A stretch of DNA of 39,532 bases from an uncultured Alphaproteobacteria bacterium (GTDB taxonomy: Bacteria; Pseudomonadota; Alphaproteobacteria; RF32; CAG-239). A model generated the notes under the pieces. That model saw only the letters and a list, made by a program, of their open reading frames with translations, ran no database searches and had not been told where the DNA came from. Each line of letters begins with the position of its first letter. The first letter of the stretch is position 1. The stretch is from contig CALXTE010000016.1 in the NCBI GenBank assembly GCA_944391345.1, forward strand, positions 1 through 39,532. The letters are read 5' to 3'. This document shows positions 4,504-14,077 of this stretch, one piece after another. A program made the position numbers and the translations under genes.

Positions 4504-5103
4504 TTAATGAGATTGCAACATCTCAACCAACAATTTTTGATTTTGGGTCCATTCTTTTCCTTTGGCATAGTTAAGGATTGCCTTATAAAATTTCTCAAGA
4601 TTTGCCCCAATCTCAACCGAAAACAAATCCGAAGAAAGCCAACGCAAAAAAGCAAAAACCAAACTGGTTGACTGATTACAGCGCTCCCAAATATAAGCCA
4701 CCATCACCGGCGTTGCAAACAAGGCAGAAATTTCCGGCAAACACTTACGAAAAGCCTCATAAGGAGATTTGTATTTAACCTTGCGCGCCACCTCGGAAAA
4801 AGCCGTAAAAATTTTCCATTCAATACCTTTGCAAAGCTCGGGATATTTGAGCAACACCCCCCAATAAGCCGAAAACTGATCATAAGACAAAACCCCCGAC
4901 ATCATCACTCTAATATTCGGAAAGCTCTCTTCAAACATTTTCTGCAAAAGCGCCAAAGTATGCTTGTGGGCCTCAAGTGCGTCTTCTAATACGCTAACCT
5001 CGTTATCAGAGCCATTTTCAACTTCTTGCAATAACTCCTGATAACGGTCCACCTGCATTTGAGCACAGACATAAACTTCTTCAAAACTTGGTAAATTAAG
5101 CAT
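4504..5103 (-). CDS. Hypothetical protein, mostly helical
   Basis: A 199-aa soluble protein that I do not recognise. It begins MLNLPSFEEVYVCAQMQ and has an acidic, probably coiled stretch at residues 15-55. Aromatic-rich helices follow, for example YDQFSAYWGVLLKYPELC and VFAFLRWLSSDLF. There is no signal peptide, repeat or catalytic signature. A promoter lies upstream at 5151-5178 and a terminator downstream, so it is a single-gene transcript. Codon use and spacing look like a real gene. No function is proposed. Confidence 0.65.
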   Translation of the reverse strand: MLNLPSFEEVYVCAQMQVDRYQELLQEVENGSDNEVSVLEDALEAHKHTLALLQKMFEESFPNIRVMMSGVLSYDQFSAYWGVLLKYPELCKGIEWKIFTAFSEVARKVKYKSPYEAFRKCLPEISALFATPVMVAYIWERCNQSTSLVFAFLRWLSSDLFSVEIGANLEKFYKAILNYAKGKEWTQNQKLLVEMLQSH

Positions 5104-5197: not shown

Positions 5198-5231
5198 CAG
5201 ACAACGCCCTAATCGACCATTATACAAACTT
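5198..5231 (+). repeat. Right-arm remnant of a hairpin element
   Basis: The segment starting GACAACGCCCTAATCGACC and ending in TTATACAAACTTT matches the right arm of the full elements at 5311-5434 and 13952-14077 almost base for base. The matching left half is absent. It ends in the family's right-end consensus TTATACnnAnTTT. Confidence 0.8.
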
Positions 5232-5242
5232 TTCTACGACTT

Positions 5243-5309
5243 AAAACTGGGTAGAATAGTACAGATAGAGGCATTTCTCACAGCGAGAAATGCCTCTAAA
5301 CAAGTTTTC
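5243..5309 (+). repeat. Internally deleted hairpin element
   Basis: The first 36 bases (starting AAAACTGGGTAGAATAGTAC) are essentially the left arm of the full element at 5695-5819. The whole inner hairpin is missing and the left arm closes on itself: GAGGCATTTCTC pairs perfectly with GAGAAATGCCTC around a 5-6 base loop, and the outer AAAACT pairs with AGTTTT. It reads as a deletion derivative of the 5695 type. Confidence 0.75.
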
Positions 5310-5310
5310 A

Positions 5311-5434
5311 AAAAATACGAAGAATGAGTCGAGTAGTAGGCGTCAAGGGCAAAAGTACCGCAGCGTACAGAGTAGTACGTGAGGACACTTTTGTCCCGCA
5401 GACAACGCACTAATCGACCATTATACGTATTTTT
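5311..5434 (+). repeat. Long-hairpin element, copy A
   Basis: A near-palindrome of 124 bp. The outer ends AAAAATACG and CGTATTTTT pair, followed by the imperfect stem GTCGAgTAGT/ACTAaTCGAC. The inner stem GGGCAAAAGT/ACTTTTGTCCC comes next, and the apex GCGTAC/GTACGT encloses loop AGAGTA. TGAGG follows the apex and CCGCAGA sits in the internal loop on the right. It is very close to copy F at 13952-14077, with changes that mostly preserve pairing. Confidence 0.85.
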
Positions 5435-5437
5435 CAA

Positions 5438-5561
5438 AAAATTCAGATAGTGAGCCAGATAGAGTAATTTCTAGGAGAGCAAAAAATTTTAGTGTACACA
5501 TTAGTACATGAATTTTTTGCCACTCCGTAAAATTGCTCTAGGTGGCCGCTAGATGAATTTT
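5438..5561 (+). repeat. Long-hairpin element, copy B
   Basis: Same length (124 bp) and architecture as copy A but with different stem sequence. The outer arm AAAATTCA..TAG..GCCA..TAGAG.AATTT pairs with AAATTGCTCTA..GG and its continuation to TGAATTTT. The inner stem is GCAAAAAATT/AATTTTTTGC. The apex TGTAC/GTACA has loop ACATTA, followed by TGAA. Two left-T/right-G wobbles and GA/GA mismatches interrupt the outer stem. Confidence 0.8.
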
Positions 5562-5570
5562 CTACGAATT

Positions 5571-5690
5571 AAACTGTGGAGAACGAGGTGAATAACAAGA
5601 TTTCAGGAAGGAAAAAGCGGAGCCTACATAGAAGTAGGTGAGCATTTTTCCTATCCGCAAAATCTGTATTAGTCACCCAAAGAACAAACT
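5571..5690 (+). repeat. Long-hairpin element, copy C
   Basis: The core GGTGA..AGATTT (5587-5603) pairs with AAATCTG..TCACC (5659-5677), and the inner stem is AGGAAAAAGC/GCATTTTTCCT. The apex CCTAC/GTAGG has loop ATAGAA, followed by TGAG. ATCCGCA lies on the right side of the internal loop. The outermost ends pair only weakly but sit where the other copies have AAACTGGGTAGAAT-like and AACAAACTT-like ends. Confidence 0.75.
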
Positions 5691-5694
5691 TGCA

Positions 5695-5819
5695 AAACTG
5701 GGTAGAATAGTACAGATAGAGGCATTTCTAGCTGCAAGAAAAATTCTAGTGTACAAAGTAGTACATGAATTTTTCGAGACAGCGTAAAATGCCTCTAGAT
5801 GTGCTGTTATACACAGTTT
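5695..5819 (+). repeat. Long-hairpin element, copy D
   Basis: The best-paired copy, 125 bp. The left arm AAACTGGGTAGAATAGTAC continues to GAGGCATTT. It matches the reverse complement of the right arm at about 26 of 32 positions. Two of the mismatches are T-G wobbles and the others are G-A type, including a tandem GA/GA. The inner stem is AGAAAAATT/AATTTTTC, and the apex TGTAC/GTACA has loop AAAGTA. It ends two bases before the ppdK stop codon, so it would form the 3' end of a ppdK transcript. Confidence 0.85.
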
Positions 5820-5821
5820 AA

Positions 5822-8494
5822 TTATGCGGCCTTCTTAGACGACTTACTCTTTCCATACTTAACCGCTGCTTGAGCTGCTGCCAAACGAGCAACAGGTACA
5901 CGGAACGGAGAGCATGAAACATAGTTCATGTCGCAAGTCTGGAAGAAGTTGATAGATGCCGGATCGCCACCGTGTTCACCACAGACGCCGAGCGTAATGG
6001 TCGGGTTGGTGCTACGAGCTTTTTCGCAAGCCATCTTAACCAGCATACCAACACCATCAACATCAATAGATGCAAACGGATCAGCAACATAAACACCGCG
6101 AGCACGATATTCGTCAAGAATAGCACCGGTATCATCACGGCTCATACCCAAAGTTGTTTGAGTCAAGTCGTTGGTACCAAATCCGAAGAATTCAGCAGAT
6201 TTAGCCAATTCATCAGCCAACAGAGCAGCACGCGGCAACTCAATCATTGAACCGACTTCATACTTAATCTTCTTACCCTTCTCGGCAAAGACCTGAGCGG
6301 CGGTTGTGTCAATAATGTTTTTAACAATATCGAGCTCTTTCTTAGAACCGGTCAAAGGAACTTCGATTTCGGGCAAAACTTTAATACCTTCATCTTGGCA
6401 TTCCAAAGCAGCTTCCAAGATAGCGCGTGTTTGCATTTCGCAGATTTCCGGATAAGTAATCGGCAAACGGCAACCACGGTGACCAAGCATCGGGTTAGCT
6501 TCATGCAAAGCATTAGCACGTTGTTTAACTTTCTCGAGTGTCATCCCCATCTTGTTAGCGAGTTCGAGCATTTCAGCATCAGTATGCGGCAAGAACTCGT
6601 GAAGAGGCGGGTCAAGCAAACGAACATTAACCGGCAGACCATCCATAATTTTGAACAGAGCCTTAAAGTCCTGCTTTTGATAAGGCAACAAGCGAGCCAA
6701 AGCCTCACGACGACCTTTTTCGTTGTCAGACAAGATCATAGCGCGCATATTCGGAATTCTGTCGGCATCAAAGAACATATGTTCGGTACGAGCCAAACCG
6801 ATACCCTGAGCACCGAAATCACGAGCCTGTTGAGCATCTTTCGGAGTTTCGGCATTAGCGCGAACTTCCATGGTGCGGATTTCATCAACCCATCCCATCA
6901 ACTTACCAAAGTTACCGGAATTGGTATCAGCCTCAACGGTCGGCATTTTACCATTAATAATCTGGCCTTTAGCACCATCCAAAGAAACCCAATCGCCTTC
7001 TTTGATAACAACACCCTTATCGGTTGTCATGGTCTTTTTAGCATAGTCGATGTGAATTTCATGAGAACCGGAAACGCAAGGAGTACCCATACCACGAGCA
7101 ACAACGGCTGCGTGAGAGGTCATACCGCCGCGAGCGGTAATAACACCCTGAGAAGCATGCATACCGCCGATATCTTCCGGAGAAGTTTCGTTACGGATAA
7201 GGATAACTTTTTCACCTTTAGCGGCCCAAGCTTCAGCATCAGCAGCATTAAAGACGGCGCGGCCGACAGCAGCTCCCGGAGAAGCCGGCAAACCGGTAGC
7301 AATAACATCTCTCTTAGCTTTCGGATCAAGCATTGGGTGCAACAACTGGTCTAACTGGTCAGCACCAACGCGCATAATAGCTTCTTCCTTGGTGAGCAAG
7401 CCTTCTTCAACCATTTCAACAGCCATACGAACGGCAGCCTGAGCGGTACGTTTACCGTTACGGCATTGAAGCATCCAGAGTTTACCATGTTCAATGGTAA
7501 ATTCCATATCCTGCATATCTTTGTAGTGATTTTCGAGGTTATTACGAACATCAACCAGCTCTTTATAGAGGTTCGGCCATTTTTCTTCCAAAGAAGTGCC
7601 GTCGCCCTTAGAAGCCATCGGTTGCGGTGTACGAATACCGGCAACAACGTCTTCACCCTGAGCGTTTACAAGATATTCACCATAATAAACATTTTCACCG
7701 GTAGCCGGGTCACGAGAGAAGCAAACACCGGTAGCGCAGTCATCACCGGCATTACCGAAGACCATGGTCTGAACGTTAACGGCGGTACCCCAGTCACCAG
7801 GAATGTTGTTTAATTTACGATAGGTAATAGCGCGATCGACCATCCAAGAACCAAATACGGCACCGATACCGGCCCACAGCTGTTCCCAAGGATCTTGCGG
7901 AACGACTTTACCGAGCTTTTTACCGATTTCTTTATATTCATTAACGAGTTCTTTCAAATCTTCGGCGGTCAAATCAGTATCAGACTTATAGCCCTTAGCC
8001 TTTTTCATAGCTTCGAGAGCGCCTTCATATTCGTCGAGATCGGCACCGAGCACAACGTCAGAGAACATCTGCAAGAAGCGGCGATAAGAGTCATAAGCAA
8101 ATCTTTCAGAGCCGGAAGCCTTAGCCAAAGCTTTAACGGTTTCATCATTCAAGCCGAGGTTAAGTACGGTATCCATCATACCCGGCATTGAAACGCGAGC
8201 GCCGGAACGAACGGAGAAGAGCAACGGATTGTTTGCATCGGCAAACTTTTTGCCCATAATTTTTTCAACACCGGCAACGGCTTCTTTAACTTGTTCTTTC
8301 AAGTCAGCCGGATAGGTGTGATTATTATTGTAATAATAAGTACAAACTTCGGTTGTAACGGTAAATCCCGGAGGAACCGGCAAGCCGACCTTGTTCATTT
8401 CAGCAAGGTTAGCACCTTTTCCGCCGAGGAGGTTGCGCATGGTAGCATCGCCTTCGGCTTTGCCGTTACCAAATGTATAAACCCATTTAGTCAT
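5822..8494 (-). CDS. ppdK: Pyruvate, phosphate dikinase
   Basis: Interconverts pyruvate, ATP and phosphate with phosphoenolpyruvate, AMP and pyrophosphate. In anaerobic gut bacteria it often serves glycolysis with pyrophosphate. The 890-aa protein has the N-terminal ATP-grasp region (about residues 1-350, with GGKGANLAEM and RSGARVSMPGMMDT). The phosphohistidine domain has catalytic H461 in GGMTSHAAVVARGMG. The C-terminal PEP/pyruvate barrel has GLARTEHMFF, FGTNDLTQTTLG and catalytic C838 in GVCGEHGGDP. All key residues are present. The start follows AAGGAG on the minus strand. Long-hairpin copy D abuts its stop codon. It is monocistronic by layout. Confidence 0.97.
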   Translation of the reverse strand: MTKWVYTFGNGKAEGDATMRNLLGGKGANLAEMNKVGLPVPPGFTVTTEVCTYYYNNNHTYPADLKEQVKEAVAGVEKIMGKKFADANNPLLFSVRSGARVSMPGMMDTVLNLGLNDETVKALAKASGSERFAYDSYRRFLQMFSDVVLGADLDEYEGALEAMKKAKGYKSDTDLTAEDLKELVNEYKEIGKKLGKVVPQDPWEQLWAGIGAVFGSWMVDRAITYRKLNNIPGDWGTAVNVQTMVFGNAGDDCATGVCFSRDPATGENVYYGEYLVNAQGEDVVAGIRTPQPMASKGDGTSLEEKWPNLYKELVDVRNNLENHYKDMQDMEFTIEHGKLWMLQCRNGKRTAQAAVRMAVEMVEEGLLTKEEAIMRVGADQLDQLLHPMLDPKAKRDVIATGLPASPGAAVGRAVFNAADAEAWAAKGEKVILIRNETSPEDIGGMHASQGVITARGGMTSHAAVVARGMGTPCVSGSHEIHIDYAKKTMTTDKGVVIKEGDWVSLDGAKGQIINGKMPTVEADTNSGNFGKLMGWVDEIRTMEVRANAETPKDAQQARDFGAQGIGLARTEHMFFDADRIPNMRAMILSDNEKGRREALARLLPYQKQDFKALFKIMDGLPVNVRLLDPPLHEFLPHTDAEMLELANKMGMTLEKVKQRANALHEANPMLGHRGCRLPITYPEICEMQTRAILEAALECQDEGIKVLPEIEVPLTGSKKELDIVKNIIDTTAAQVFAEKGKKIKYEVGSMIELPRAALLADELAKSAEFFGFGTNDLTQTTLGMSRDDTGAILDEYRARGVYVADPFASIDVDGVGMLVKMACEKARSTNPTITLGVCGEHGGDPASINFFQTCDMNYVSCSPFRVPVARLAAAQAAVKYGKSKSSKKAA

Positions 8495-8499
8495 GGTTA

Positions 8500-9276
8500 A
8501 TTCAGCTCCTTATAGCATTAAGGTTAAAACGAGACCGAAAAAACAAACACGCCCCGCAAGGGAGTGAGTCTGATTCGCGGTCATTTAGTTATCAAACTGC
8601 GAAGAATGTATAACATGATTCAAGATTCTTCAAGCAAAATTTTATCAACAAACGTTTTATACACAAACGCTTGGCGCTTTGGGAAGCCGGTTTCCGACTC
8701 GCACATAATTTTTCTCATAACGAACGACAAAGGATGACAACGAGTCGCTTCTTTTATCGCAGTCCATACCGGCGGACAAATCTGCTGTTTTTTGGAAAAA
8801 CCTTTGGCAGATTCAGCAAATAAAATCTGTCGATTCCCCAATAGGGGCTGTTTTCAGCACCTTTGGGGCTCAAGACGAACGTCCATTTCGTCCGCTTTTG
8901 GCGAAAAGAACTTAGATTCCGCCGTCCTAAAAGGTTAAAATTTCACTAAAATATAAAGATTTTTCTTGCAAATGAAGATGTTTTATGCTACTCTATAATA
9001 GACAAAATATAACTATGTCTTTCTATTATTGAAGCTATTATTCCCCATACAAAATATTTTTTTCTCATCTTAAATTTTTTAAGACTTATAAAGAAAAATT
9101 CATTTTGGTATATCAAAAAGGTTTAAGGCTTTCAGACAAAGACATTCGGTTATGTCTCCGGCTGTTAATCTGCATGGAGTTTCAAAAATTTTTTCAACCT
9201 CATTGTGTTCGCACCTTGAGGTTCAACATATTTCAAAAAAAACAAAAAAAAATAATAATAAAAAACTTTTTTTAAT
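8500..9276. other. Intergenic region between ppdK and the lipoprotein gene
   Basis: A stretch of 777 bases with no convincing gene. It holds the divergent control regions of ppdK (minus) and the 9277 gene (plus). A TATAAT box at 8993-8998 is the clearest plus-strand -10 candidate, without a good -35. AACCTCA and TGAGGTT (about 9199-9224) form a 7-bp hairpin shortly before the 9277 gene. The last ~40 bases are almost pure A/T with no Shine-Dalgarno site. A 73-codon minus-strand frame at 8620-8841 has only a TTG start and is not called. Confidence 0.6.
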
Positions 9277-13361: not shown

Positions 13362-13426
13362 TCCAAACTTTACAAAAGTTTGGAGACCCGCGAAATCTGT
13401 ATTAGTTGCACGTTATACAAACTTTT
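13362..13426 (+). repeat. Truncated hairpin element, C-like right half
   Basis: A perfect small hairpin (CTCCAAACTTT with AAAGTTTGGAG) is followed by ACCCGCG and AAATCTGTATTAGT, matching the right arm of copy C (5659-5672). It ends in GTTATACAAACTTTT, the family right end. The outer left arm is not found, so it is a truncated copy. Confidence 0.65.
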
Positions 13427-13428
13427 CC

Positions 13429-13457
13429 TTGCAATCTCTATCGCAATTATCTATACT
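13429..13457 (+). promoter_or_regulatory. Sigma70-type promoter for the structured leader/XRE unit
   Basis: TTGCAA (13429-13434), a 17-base spacer, TATACT (13452-13457). Transcription would begin near 13464, exactly where the first perfect hairpin of the leader begins. Confidence 0.7.
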
Positions 13458-13463
13458 CATTCT

Positions 13464-13621
13464 GTCGGTTAGAGGTAACCGACGGTGCCTCAAAAACACC
13501 TACATAATAATAAAATCCTCCGCTTATAACGGGCGGAGTACCGCTAATATATTGAATAACGGTGACTGTATTATGTCAGTTTTTGAGCTCCGCCTGCCTA
13601 AATTTAAGGCAGGTATTTTTT
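13464..13621 (+). ncRNA. Candidate structured RNA or attenuator leader
   Basis: About 158 nt lie between the promoter at 13429 and an intrinsic terminator at 13593-13621. Hairpin 1 is GTCGGTT/AACCGAC with loop AGAGGT (13464-13483). GGTG/CACC (13484-13500) can form a second small stem. Hairpin 3 is CTCCGC/GCGGAG (13518-13538). The 3' hairpin CCTGCCT/AGGCAGG is followed by a T-run. It matches no RNA family I can name. It could be an independent small RNA, or a leader whose terminator controls the XRE gene at 13648. A 20-codon frame starting at 13573 runs through the terminator and ends before the XRE ribosome binding site, so a leader-peptide mechanism is also possible. Confidence 0.5.
13593..13621 (+). 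terminator. Intrinsic terminator upstream of the XRE gene
   Basis: CCTGCCT (13593-13599), loop AAATTTA, AGGCAGG (13607-13613), then TATTTTTT. It lies 27 bases before the XRE start codon, so readthrough would be needed to express that gene from the 13429 promoter. Confidence 0.75.
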
Positions 13622-13647
13622 ATAAACTAAAATAAAAGGAGCTGAAA

Positions 13648-13890
13648 ATGGGAATAAAAAAAGAACAAATTATTTATTTAGAAGACAATCGTGCTGAAGT
13701 CGGACAGAAGTTGTATGAACTCCGGCAAGAACATAAGTTAAGTATTGATGATATATCAAAAATCAGCGGATTATCACGCCGCCGGATTAAAAATGTCGAA
13801 CAAGGCCGAGCTTTCGGGCTAAGACGCGTCGCCGTCATCGCCGCCATTTATAATCACAAATTAAAATTTGAACTCATCAAAGCTTCTTAA
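13648..13890 (+). CDS. Small XRE-family helix-turn-helix protein
   Basis: An 80-aa DNA-binding protein made almost entirely of one Cro/C1-type HTH at residues 16-70. Helix 1 is VGQKLYELRQEHKLS, the turn-recognition part is IDDISKISGLSRRRIKNVEQG, and AVIAAIYNH closes the fold. No dimerisation or ligand domain is added. The start is set by AAAGGAG seven bases upstream. It is preceded by the structured leader and a terminator and is followed by its own terminator. No toxin partner is adjacent. A role as repressor of its own leader/promoter is possible but not shown. Confidence 0.85.
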   Translation: MGIKKEQIIYLEDNRAEVGQKLYELRQEHKLSIDDISKISGLSRRRIKNVEQGRAFGLRRVAVIAAIYNHKLKFELIKAS

Positions 13891-13930: not shown

Positions 13931-13948
13931 ACGCTGTTATACGAACTT
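13931..13948 (+). repeat. Right-end remnant of a hairpin element
   Basis: CGCTGTTATACGAACTTT resembles the right end of copy D (GTGCTGTTATACACAGTTT). It sits directly before copy F, repeating the end-to-start arrangement seen in the 5198-5819 array. Confidence 0.5.
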
Positions 13949-13951
13949 TAC

Positions 13952-14077
13952 TTAAATTGGGGAGAATGAGTCGAGTAGTAGGCGTCAAGGGCAAAAGTAC
14001 CGCAACGTACAGAGTAGTACGTGAGGAAACTTTTGACCCGCAGACAACGCACTAATCGACCATTATACACAATTTAA
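13952..14077 (+). repeat. Long-hairpin element, copy F
   Basis: A 126-bp near-palindrome. The outer ends TTAAATTG and CAATTTAA pair, then GTCGAgTAGT with ACTAaTCGAC. The inner stem is GGGcAAAAGT/ACTTTTgACCC, and the apex ACGTAC/GTACGT has loop AGAGTA. The central ~105 bases are nearly identical to copy A at 5321-5425. Here the apical stem is fully paired (A-T) where copy A has a G-T wobble. It ends three bases before the stop codon of the 14081 gene. Confidence 0.85.

Follow-up and report, generated by a model that had tools for sequence, protein, structure and literature searches.

Tandem hairpin elements behind ppdK in an uncultured alphaproteobacterium belong to a superfamily of palindromic repeats that contains the Rickettsia palindromic elements

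The window, by which we mean the whole stretch of 39,532 nucleotides of DNA that was analysed, comes from an uncultured alphaproteobacterium (the host genome in what follows) and carries a tandem array of hairpin elements between a minus-strand gene at 4504-5103 and the pyruvate phosphate dikinase gene ppdK. A first-pass annotation, made from the letters alone, had placed such an array at 5198..5819, and the array is indeed there, with limits at 5198-5821 and a content of four full hairpin copies, one truncated copy and one fragment, every copy in the same orientation (Table 1). The truncated copy retains its left arm and has lost its interior and right end; its right limit was judged by eye. 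The array's right end, formed by the last full copy, directly adjoins the ppdK stop codon at 5822-5824. Our analysis recovered the layout described in that annotation: an outer stem, an internal loop, an inner stem and, at the apex, a 6-bp hairpin whose loop has six bases. The end consensus that it gave, AAACTGGGTAGAAT on the left and TTATACnnAnTTT on the right, describes this array and does not hold genome-wide: across the host genome the more constant end parts are GGAGAAYG and CRTTATAC, which not every copy keeps; the sequence of the outermost stem, AAAAGnnnG / CnnnCTTTT, varies from copy to copy while its pairing persists. Farther along in the window, a single full copy and the stop codon of an ORF on the opposite strand are 4 nt apart. 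An Rfam search of the window at gathering score returned two tRNAs only and no family for the hairpins, and the same search on stretches L186, L171 and L172 returned no match; Rfam matches below the cut-off, to microRNA models and others, were set aside as chance matches to a hairpin.

Table 1. Hairpin elements in the window and the adjoining ppdK gene. R1 and R2 are the covariance models described in the text; fold z is the folding z-score against 200 dinucleotide shuffles.
Feature	Position	Strand	Evidence
Right-end fragment of copy	5198..5234	+	direct repeat D3, 89% identical to 5399-5435
Truncated copy	about 5243..5306	+	direct repeat D1; blastn 5243-5290, 92% identity to last copy
Full copy, stem type 1	5309..5435	+	R1 140.2 bits; R2 49.9 bits; fold z -8.1; apex 5366-5382
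Full copy	5435..5563	+	R1 66.1 bits; fold z -11.1; apex 5495-5511
Full copy	5568..5694	+	R1 105.3 bits; fold z -4.8; apex 5625-5641
Full copy	5692..5821	+	R1 47.8 bits; fold z -11.3; apex 5752-5768
ppdK, pyruvate phosphate dikinase	5822..8494	-	TIGR01828, 1349.6 bits; 3' end abuts array
Internally deleted copy, left end adjoining right half	13374..13426	+	sequence reading: AAAAGTTTGGAGA then CCCGCGAAATCTGTATTAGTTGCACGTTATACAAACTTTT
Right-end remnant before single copy	13932..13949	+	sequence reading: CGCTGTTATACGAACTTT
Single full copy	13951..14077	+	R1 139.2 bits

Sixteen gap-free copies, taken from the host genome only, were aligned (alignment A2) and used as the basis of a covariance model, R1, with 127 positions and 43 pairs. 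The scan of the genome and its relatives with such a model, which the first-pass annotation had proposed, shows copies to be numerous: R1 has 31 matches in the host genome at E<=0.01, matches all 12 genomes of the host genus, with 9-50 matches per genome, and matches 111 of the 127 genomes of the host family, covering 16 of its 16 genera. Two matches, L133 8833-8959 and (by reading) G033:C1:43824-43950, were excluded, each being the reverse reading of a palindrome already covered by a better match. The apex pattern TACNNNNNAGTANNTGA occurs 30 times in the host genome, compared with two occurrences of its reversed control. A scan of named genomes with the pattern gave 103 stretches. Most of the 80 of these that were listed come from records labelled uncultured Alphaproteobacteria or proteobacterium, Azospirillum sp. 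CAG:239 and several gut samples among them, and these titles suggest that the host family is one of gut Alphaproteobacteria; the outsiders comprised at least one place in Rickettsia rhipicephali, at least six in one Gammaproteobacteria metagenome-assembled genome (MAG), and at least one in a MAG labelled Clostridia. The repeat is a real one, an abundant, structurally constrained and common DNA repeat of Alphaproteobacteria.

The hallmark of the copies, and of the wider superfamily described below, is a conserved apex, A-GYGTAC-loop-GTACRT-GA, which sits atop long stems whose sequence is nearly free while their pairing is kept. Within A2, 25 of the 43 pairs show two-sided change and 96.2% of the cells are paired, against 80.6% in shuffled and 36-42% in slid controls. 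With 55 matches aligned to the model, 35 of the 43 pairs show two-sided change and 95.4% of cells are paired, against 75.7% shuffled and 33-45% slid, in an alignment that, being fitted to the model, leans towards it; one of its rows is the backwards palindrome at L133 8833-8959, which was omitted from the G-U/A-C and terminal-stem counts given below. Compensatory change far above both controls is what the first-pass annotation had suggested looking for, and its proposal of selection for the structure is likely to be right. This stops short of proof because correction of one arm by the other through hairpin templating would also yield paired changes.

The most informative part is the outermost stem, of which several sequences occur among copies with the same interior. 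Its four variable base pairs are paired in 88.5% of cells within copies and in 58.3% across copies, with a maximum of 72.3% in 2000 permutations. At the 3' locus of infB, the host genome (in which the gene is identified by TIGR00487) and genome G006 (in which the gene shares its end by sequence reading) both carry the element with different outer arms. Covariation that reaches an outermost stem so variable among copies with identical interiors argues for the account by templated correction, in which the paired changes would come from template switching in a quasi-palindrome rather than from selection, and the fold need not function. The same account draws support from the numbers of G-U and A-C cells, 37 and 27 with the apical pair left out (G-U in 53 of 55 rows, and A-C on the other strand), which are not significantly different (p=0.26), as expected if either arm is copied, and which resolve no strand preference for folding. 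It leaves unexplained the conservation of the apex across orders, the placement at stop codons and the lock on orientation described below, and we regard it as unlikely.

The unit is sharply bounded: in the 87 of 92 copies used, pairing drops to background just outside the element. We rejected the notion that the terminal stem arose by inverted copying of host sequence, since pairing with the flank is generally absent; the one clear case is ppdK in L126, where the arm contains the last codons, and two further candidates in L371 were unconvincing on folding. The ppdK 3' flanks of two other genomes (L117 and L125) contain element-like hairpins with an apical loop that looks expanded to about 100 nt or more, perhaps through insertion within the loop.

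Placement relative to genes was counted for 61 arrays in 40 stretches, 59 of them with a predicted right neighbour, genes being predicted ORFs of at least 110 aa. This count omits the incomplete contig-end copies at L131 1-101 and L141 and the window copy at 5435-5563, which lies inside the array, and adds L138 9749-9875, a known R1 copy; the stretches used here and for orientation were picked for holding copies and are not a random sample. For 55 of the 59 arrays the right neighbour lies on the opposite strand. In 46 of the 59, an opposite-strand stop codon falls within -30..+15 nt of the element end, an interval set after a first look at the data; the remaining 13 miss this rule, which is obeyed by 570 of 11773 random intergenic points (4.8%). 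Where a gene runs into the element, the motif GTATAACG, read in gene sense, can supply an in-frame TAA stop. Behind ppdK, by reading of the flanks, some genomes have the element at the stop codon and others have only an ordinary terminator, which we read as gain or loss of the element at one site; L126 and L130 have the element with an ordinary terminator downstream. The element ends have a terminator-like form, with an A-tract and a T-tract conserved in the 16 copies and the stem followed by the T-tract behind the stop, and by this form they may act as intrinsic terminators.

In the window, a repeated leader of about 150 nt lies at 13457-13625, and further copies of it are found in L004, L012, L015, L018, L028, L173, L232, L243 and L249. 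It folds into a branched structure of 41 predicted pairs, nine of them with two-sided change among ten copies, and small genes follow immediately after the terminator-like hairpin that forms its end. The leader resembles sRNA-Xcc1 (RF02221) below the cut-off (31.3 bits against a gathering score of 53); it may represent a second structured RNA family. In two of the ten leader copies read, L012 (where the insertion is the same place as L136 15979-16105) and L249, a hairpin copy sits inside the loop of the leader terminator, and in the other eight, the window copy included, the terminator loop is short. The insertion boundaries between filled and empty versions are ambiguous, with no target-site duplication definable; the location is consistent with elements inserting at T-rich ends or in the loops of hairpins. 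Another recurrent neighbour of the hairpins, on the same strand, is a small helix-turn-helix gene of the Cro/C1 type (Pfam HTH_3, 28 bits; about 80 aa), seen at window 13648-13890, L131 461-703, L132 7966-8199, L133 9011-9313, L136 7455-7724 and 15693-15950, and L146 9888-10130. Relatives of this gene are found in 18 of the 127 host-family genomes, and of the 27 loci searched outside the host genome, 12 are flanked by a clear R1 match.

Copies lie on a single strand, by reading, in 30 of the 31 contigs that have two or more places, the mixed-strand exception being contig G108:C10. As a general rule, positive GC skew marks the leading strand. Elements lie on the strand opposite to the GC-skew sign in all 20 informative regions from three genomes and in all 19 single-strand regions from six other genomes, so that orientation and skew agree in every one of the 39 informative single-strand regions. 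Outside this set stand L146, with a skew of -0.0004, and L355, which is mixed and has two of its three copies in agreement. Because most ORF bases lie on the other strand in several regions (L137, L147, L360, L362, L369 and L370), gene orientation alone does not explain the lock. Taking GC skew to stand for the direction of replication, the elements would follow leading-strand genes, and we read the copies here as confined to the 3' ends of such genes.

An alternative is that the elements have been domesticated and no longer move, serving as 3'-end terminators or mRNA protectors of leading-strand genes, kept and reshuffled by recombination among the copies, with an apex that binds an RNA-binding protein. 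The 46 arrays that abut stop codons point in that direction, as do the covariation of a terminal stem built of A-tract, stem and T-tract and the in-frame TAA that GTATAACG can give in gene sense. A terminator role alone leaves unexplained why lagging-strand genes are avoided in all 39 regions, why the copies form tandem arrays, and why the apex is common to Rickettsia palindromic elements that lie in open frames; the ordinary terminators still found downstream in L126 and L130 count against it as well. We consider domestication possible but doubtful.

The first-pass annotation recognised no known family in this layout. That claim was wrong: reciprocal covariance-model searches tie the element to the Rickettsia palindromic elements (RPEs), and to RPE1 above all. 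The place that the pattern scan found in R. rhipicephali is part of an open frame, and this frame matches NCBIfam RPE1 with 78 bits (cut-off 30). R1, which has no Rickettsia sequence in it, matches R. rhipicephali at 61 places (E<=0.1; best 2.9e-11) and in the same search 11 places in the Gammaproteobacteria MAG and nine in the MAG labelled Clostridia. The 20 best R. rhipicephali places were fetched, and in 13 of these 20 a frame is open through the entire element. Seven of them were run against NCBIfam: two matched RPE1 and two RPE3 above cut-off, two matched RPE1 below it and one was unmatched, so that the eight Rickettsia copies tested in all include three RPE1 (78-98.5 bits) and two RPE3 (79.5 and 81 bits). 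The reverse direction gives a still cleaner result: a model built solely from 12 RPE1 copies, R2, has 57 matches at E<=1 in the host family (21 stretches, 423 kb), the best at 7.1e-11, and 24 at E<=1 in further host-family stretches (20 stretches, 397 kb), the best at 7.7e-12. Most R2 matches coincide with R1 places, and others adjoin R1 copies (L150 1284-1387, L147 9228-9332 and L142 10441-10546, among others). The elements here are a branch of an alphaproteobacterial superfamily that contains the RPEs and is defined by apex and fold.

Of ten exact plus-strand translations of copies from here, none matches any NCBIfam model at E<=5; the RPE1 peptide (TIGR01045) is not encoded, and the copies are therefore not RPE1 in the strict sense. 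In R. rhipicephali, opposite strands carry copies at distances within 5 kb, which shows that not all of the superfamily has the orientation lock. RPEs are described as present in Rickettsia and Wolbachia, with RPE-1, -2 and -3 frequent in ORFs, in the part of PMC3767692 available to us, and as Rickettsia-specific in the corresponding part of PMC2229807; neither part names a mover. A literature search, weak as a negative since subscription papers were mostly outside its coverage, found no report of relatives of RPEs from outside the Rickettsiales, nor of palindromes locked to replication, and an apparent hit, Rpe1 in the accessible portion of PMC12237263, is a cell line and not the Rickettsia element. 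As far as that search reached, the branch described here is a previously unrecognised one of the RPE-containing family, and it has two strong, as yet unexplained placement rules.

The family reaches well beyond the host family. A class-wide draw of 385 genomes, among them five host-family genomes of which four match, gave 35 with an R1 match at E<=1e-4; outside the host family this means at least 31 of 380 alphaproteobacterial genomes, a lower bound given the strict filter. By reading, AGYGTAC...GTACRTGA is present in eight of the ten outside copies printed whole, with L318 and L332 deviating. A GC-rich copy matches 31 plasmid records at 56 places, chiefly in Sphingobium, Shinella, Phyllobacterium and Agrobacterium; a GC-rich copy has no match in a search against phages, and the window array has none in a search against plasmids. 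Eight of the 56 plasmid places were inspected. R1 matches seven of the eight plasmid stretches searched (E 1e-11 to 2e-5; not L417), and R2 matches seven of the same eight weakly (E 0.001-0.02). Seven of the eight places have annotation (H19 has none), and of these seven copies five follow the stop-codon rule at 9-20 nt, H2 and H12 being the two that do not.

Among viral contigs, the gut-type apex pattern has zero matches and the general apex GCAGCGTACNNNNNNGTACGTGAG is present in 19 stretches. By reading, 17 of the 19 form this hairpin too, on stems rich in GC, and the fold is poorer in L397 and L400; R2 matches 18 of them at E<=0.1 (not L397), and R1 matches three of the three viral contigs searched (E 1e-11 to 2e-5). 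Stretch L402, the sole viral contig with ORFs listed, has two copies, at 5824-5947 and 9067-9187, within a cluster of ORFs that read as terminase, portal, protease and capsid genes, which by its gene order seems to resemble a gene transfer agent. Viral spread of host-type elements was rejected in view of the zero matches to the gut-type pattern in viral contigs and of the resemblance of L402 to a gene transfer agent.

Taken as a whole, the elements are probably small non-autonomous mobile palindromes of about 127 bp, members of the RPE superfamily, that spread at the replication fork and survive behind stop codons; both the movement and the mover in this account are inferred. The copies would spread as single-stranded hairpins at the fork, where a putative enzyme would recognise the apex, and passage through the single-stranded hairpin would lead to insertion in one orientation. 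Insertions would survive mostly behind stop codons, where an end made of A-tract, stem and T-tract could serve as an intrinsic terminator, and arrays would lengthen as more copies insert and as copies recombine with one another. A more sweeping reading, to which we give only tentative credence and against which we lean, would make the elements class-wide hairpin parasites: copying at the fork would take place in single-stranded form, a putative enzyme would recognise the elements by their apex, and they would be delivered to the ends of leading-strand genes; RPEs would then have lost the orientation and target rule and thereby come to invade protein genes.

As for the mover, single-strand transposition, as in IS200/IS605, is expected to lock orientation to replication, and this would speak for palindromes moved in the manner of REPs by a Y1 (HUH) transposase of RAYT type. 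The Y1 transposase model PF01797, however, has zero matches in the host genome, the one family genome searched, with control matches in five of 14 genomes, and the elements measure 127 bp where REPs measure 20-40 bp according to the accessible part of PMC3733652; such a mover is very improbable. Hardly credible, and largely refuted, is a retroelement whose hairpin RNA is copied in trans by a reverse transcriptase. In its favour, one RVT_1 gene is carried by nine of the 12 genus genomes, but only 35 of the 127 family genomes have RVT_1, several genomes rich in elements lack it, G002 with its 40 copies for example, and ten reverse transcriptase regions examined contained no element; on the evidence of G002 and of these ten regions, reverse transcriptase was rejected as the mover. 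The reverse transcriptase of the host genome (RVT_1; L378 572-1999, contig C37) also looks, by its motif, to be of the diversity-generating retroelement type. It adjoins a small helix-turn-helix-like ORF, a pairing seen also in L379.

Should these results be borne out, the RPEs form one local branch within a family that spans many alphaproteobacterial lineages, cultured genera among them (for example Sphingobium and Shinella). Concrete clues to mechanism would then come from the orientation lock and the stop-codon rule, and the conserved apex would be a bait for the protein that handles these elements.

Several known systems invite comparison. REP/BIME elements with RAYT are likewise palindromic, intergenic and repeated; the elements here are longer and have another apex, and the host genome holds no Y1 transposase. 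ERIC/IRU (127 bp) and other bacterial MITEs, compared by description only, share the size and long stem-loops: ERIC/IRU and other small repeats with long stem-loops are treated in PMC2229807, whose accessible part mentions neither the apex motif nor an orientation lock for them, and MITEs are reviewed in PMC10969869. The GC-rich repeats of Rhizobiales and Sphingomonadales have the same apex and fold and, in five of seven annotated cases, the same placement, and differ in their GC-rich stems, which share no evident sequence with the copies here; these palindromic repeats are perhaps the RIME elements of rhizobia (Osteras et al. 1995, as cited in the portions seen of PMC2573895 and PMC2873474). 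Closest are RPE1 (TIGR01045) and RPE3 (TIGR03775), which resemble the elements in length and in their long imperfect hairpin. The apex is nearly identical letter for letter, RPE1 having CACCGCAGCGTACA....AGTACGTGAGGATG and stem type 3 here CACCGCAGCGTACA....AGTACGTGAGGATG, and the 127 positions of the copies here fall within the roughly 100-150 bp of RPE1. Like RPE1, the copies here are palindromes with terminal inverted repeats. They differ from the in-frame insertions of RPE1 in protein genes, a predicted ORF (110 aa or longer) enclosing just one of the 61 arrays; they are intergenic, mostly abut stop codons, form tandem arrays and follow GC skew.
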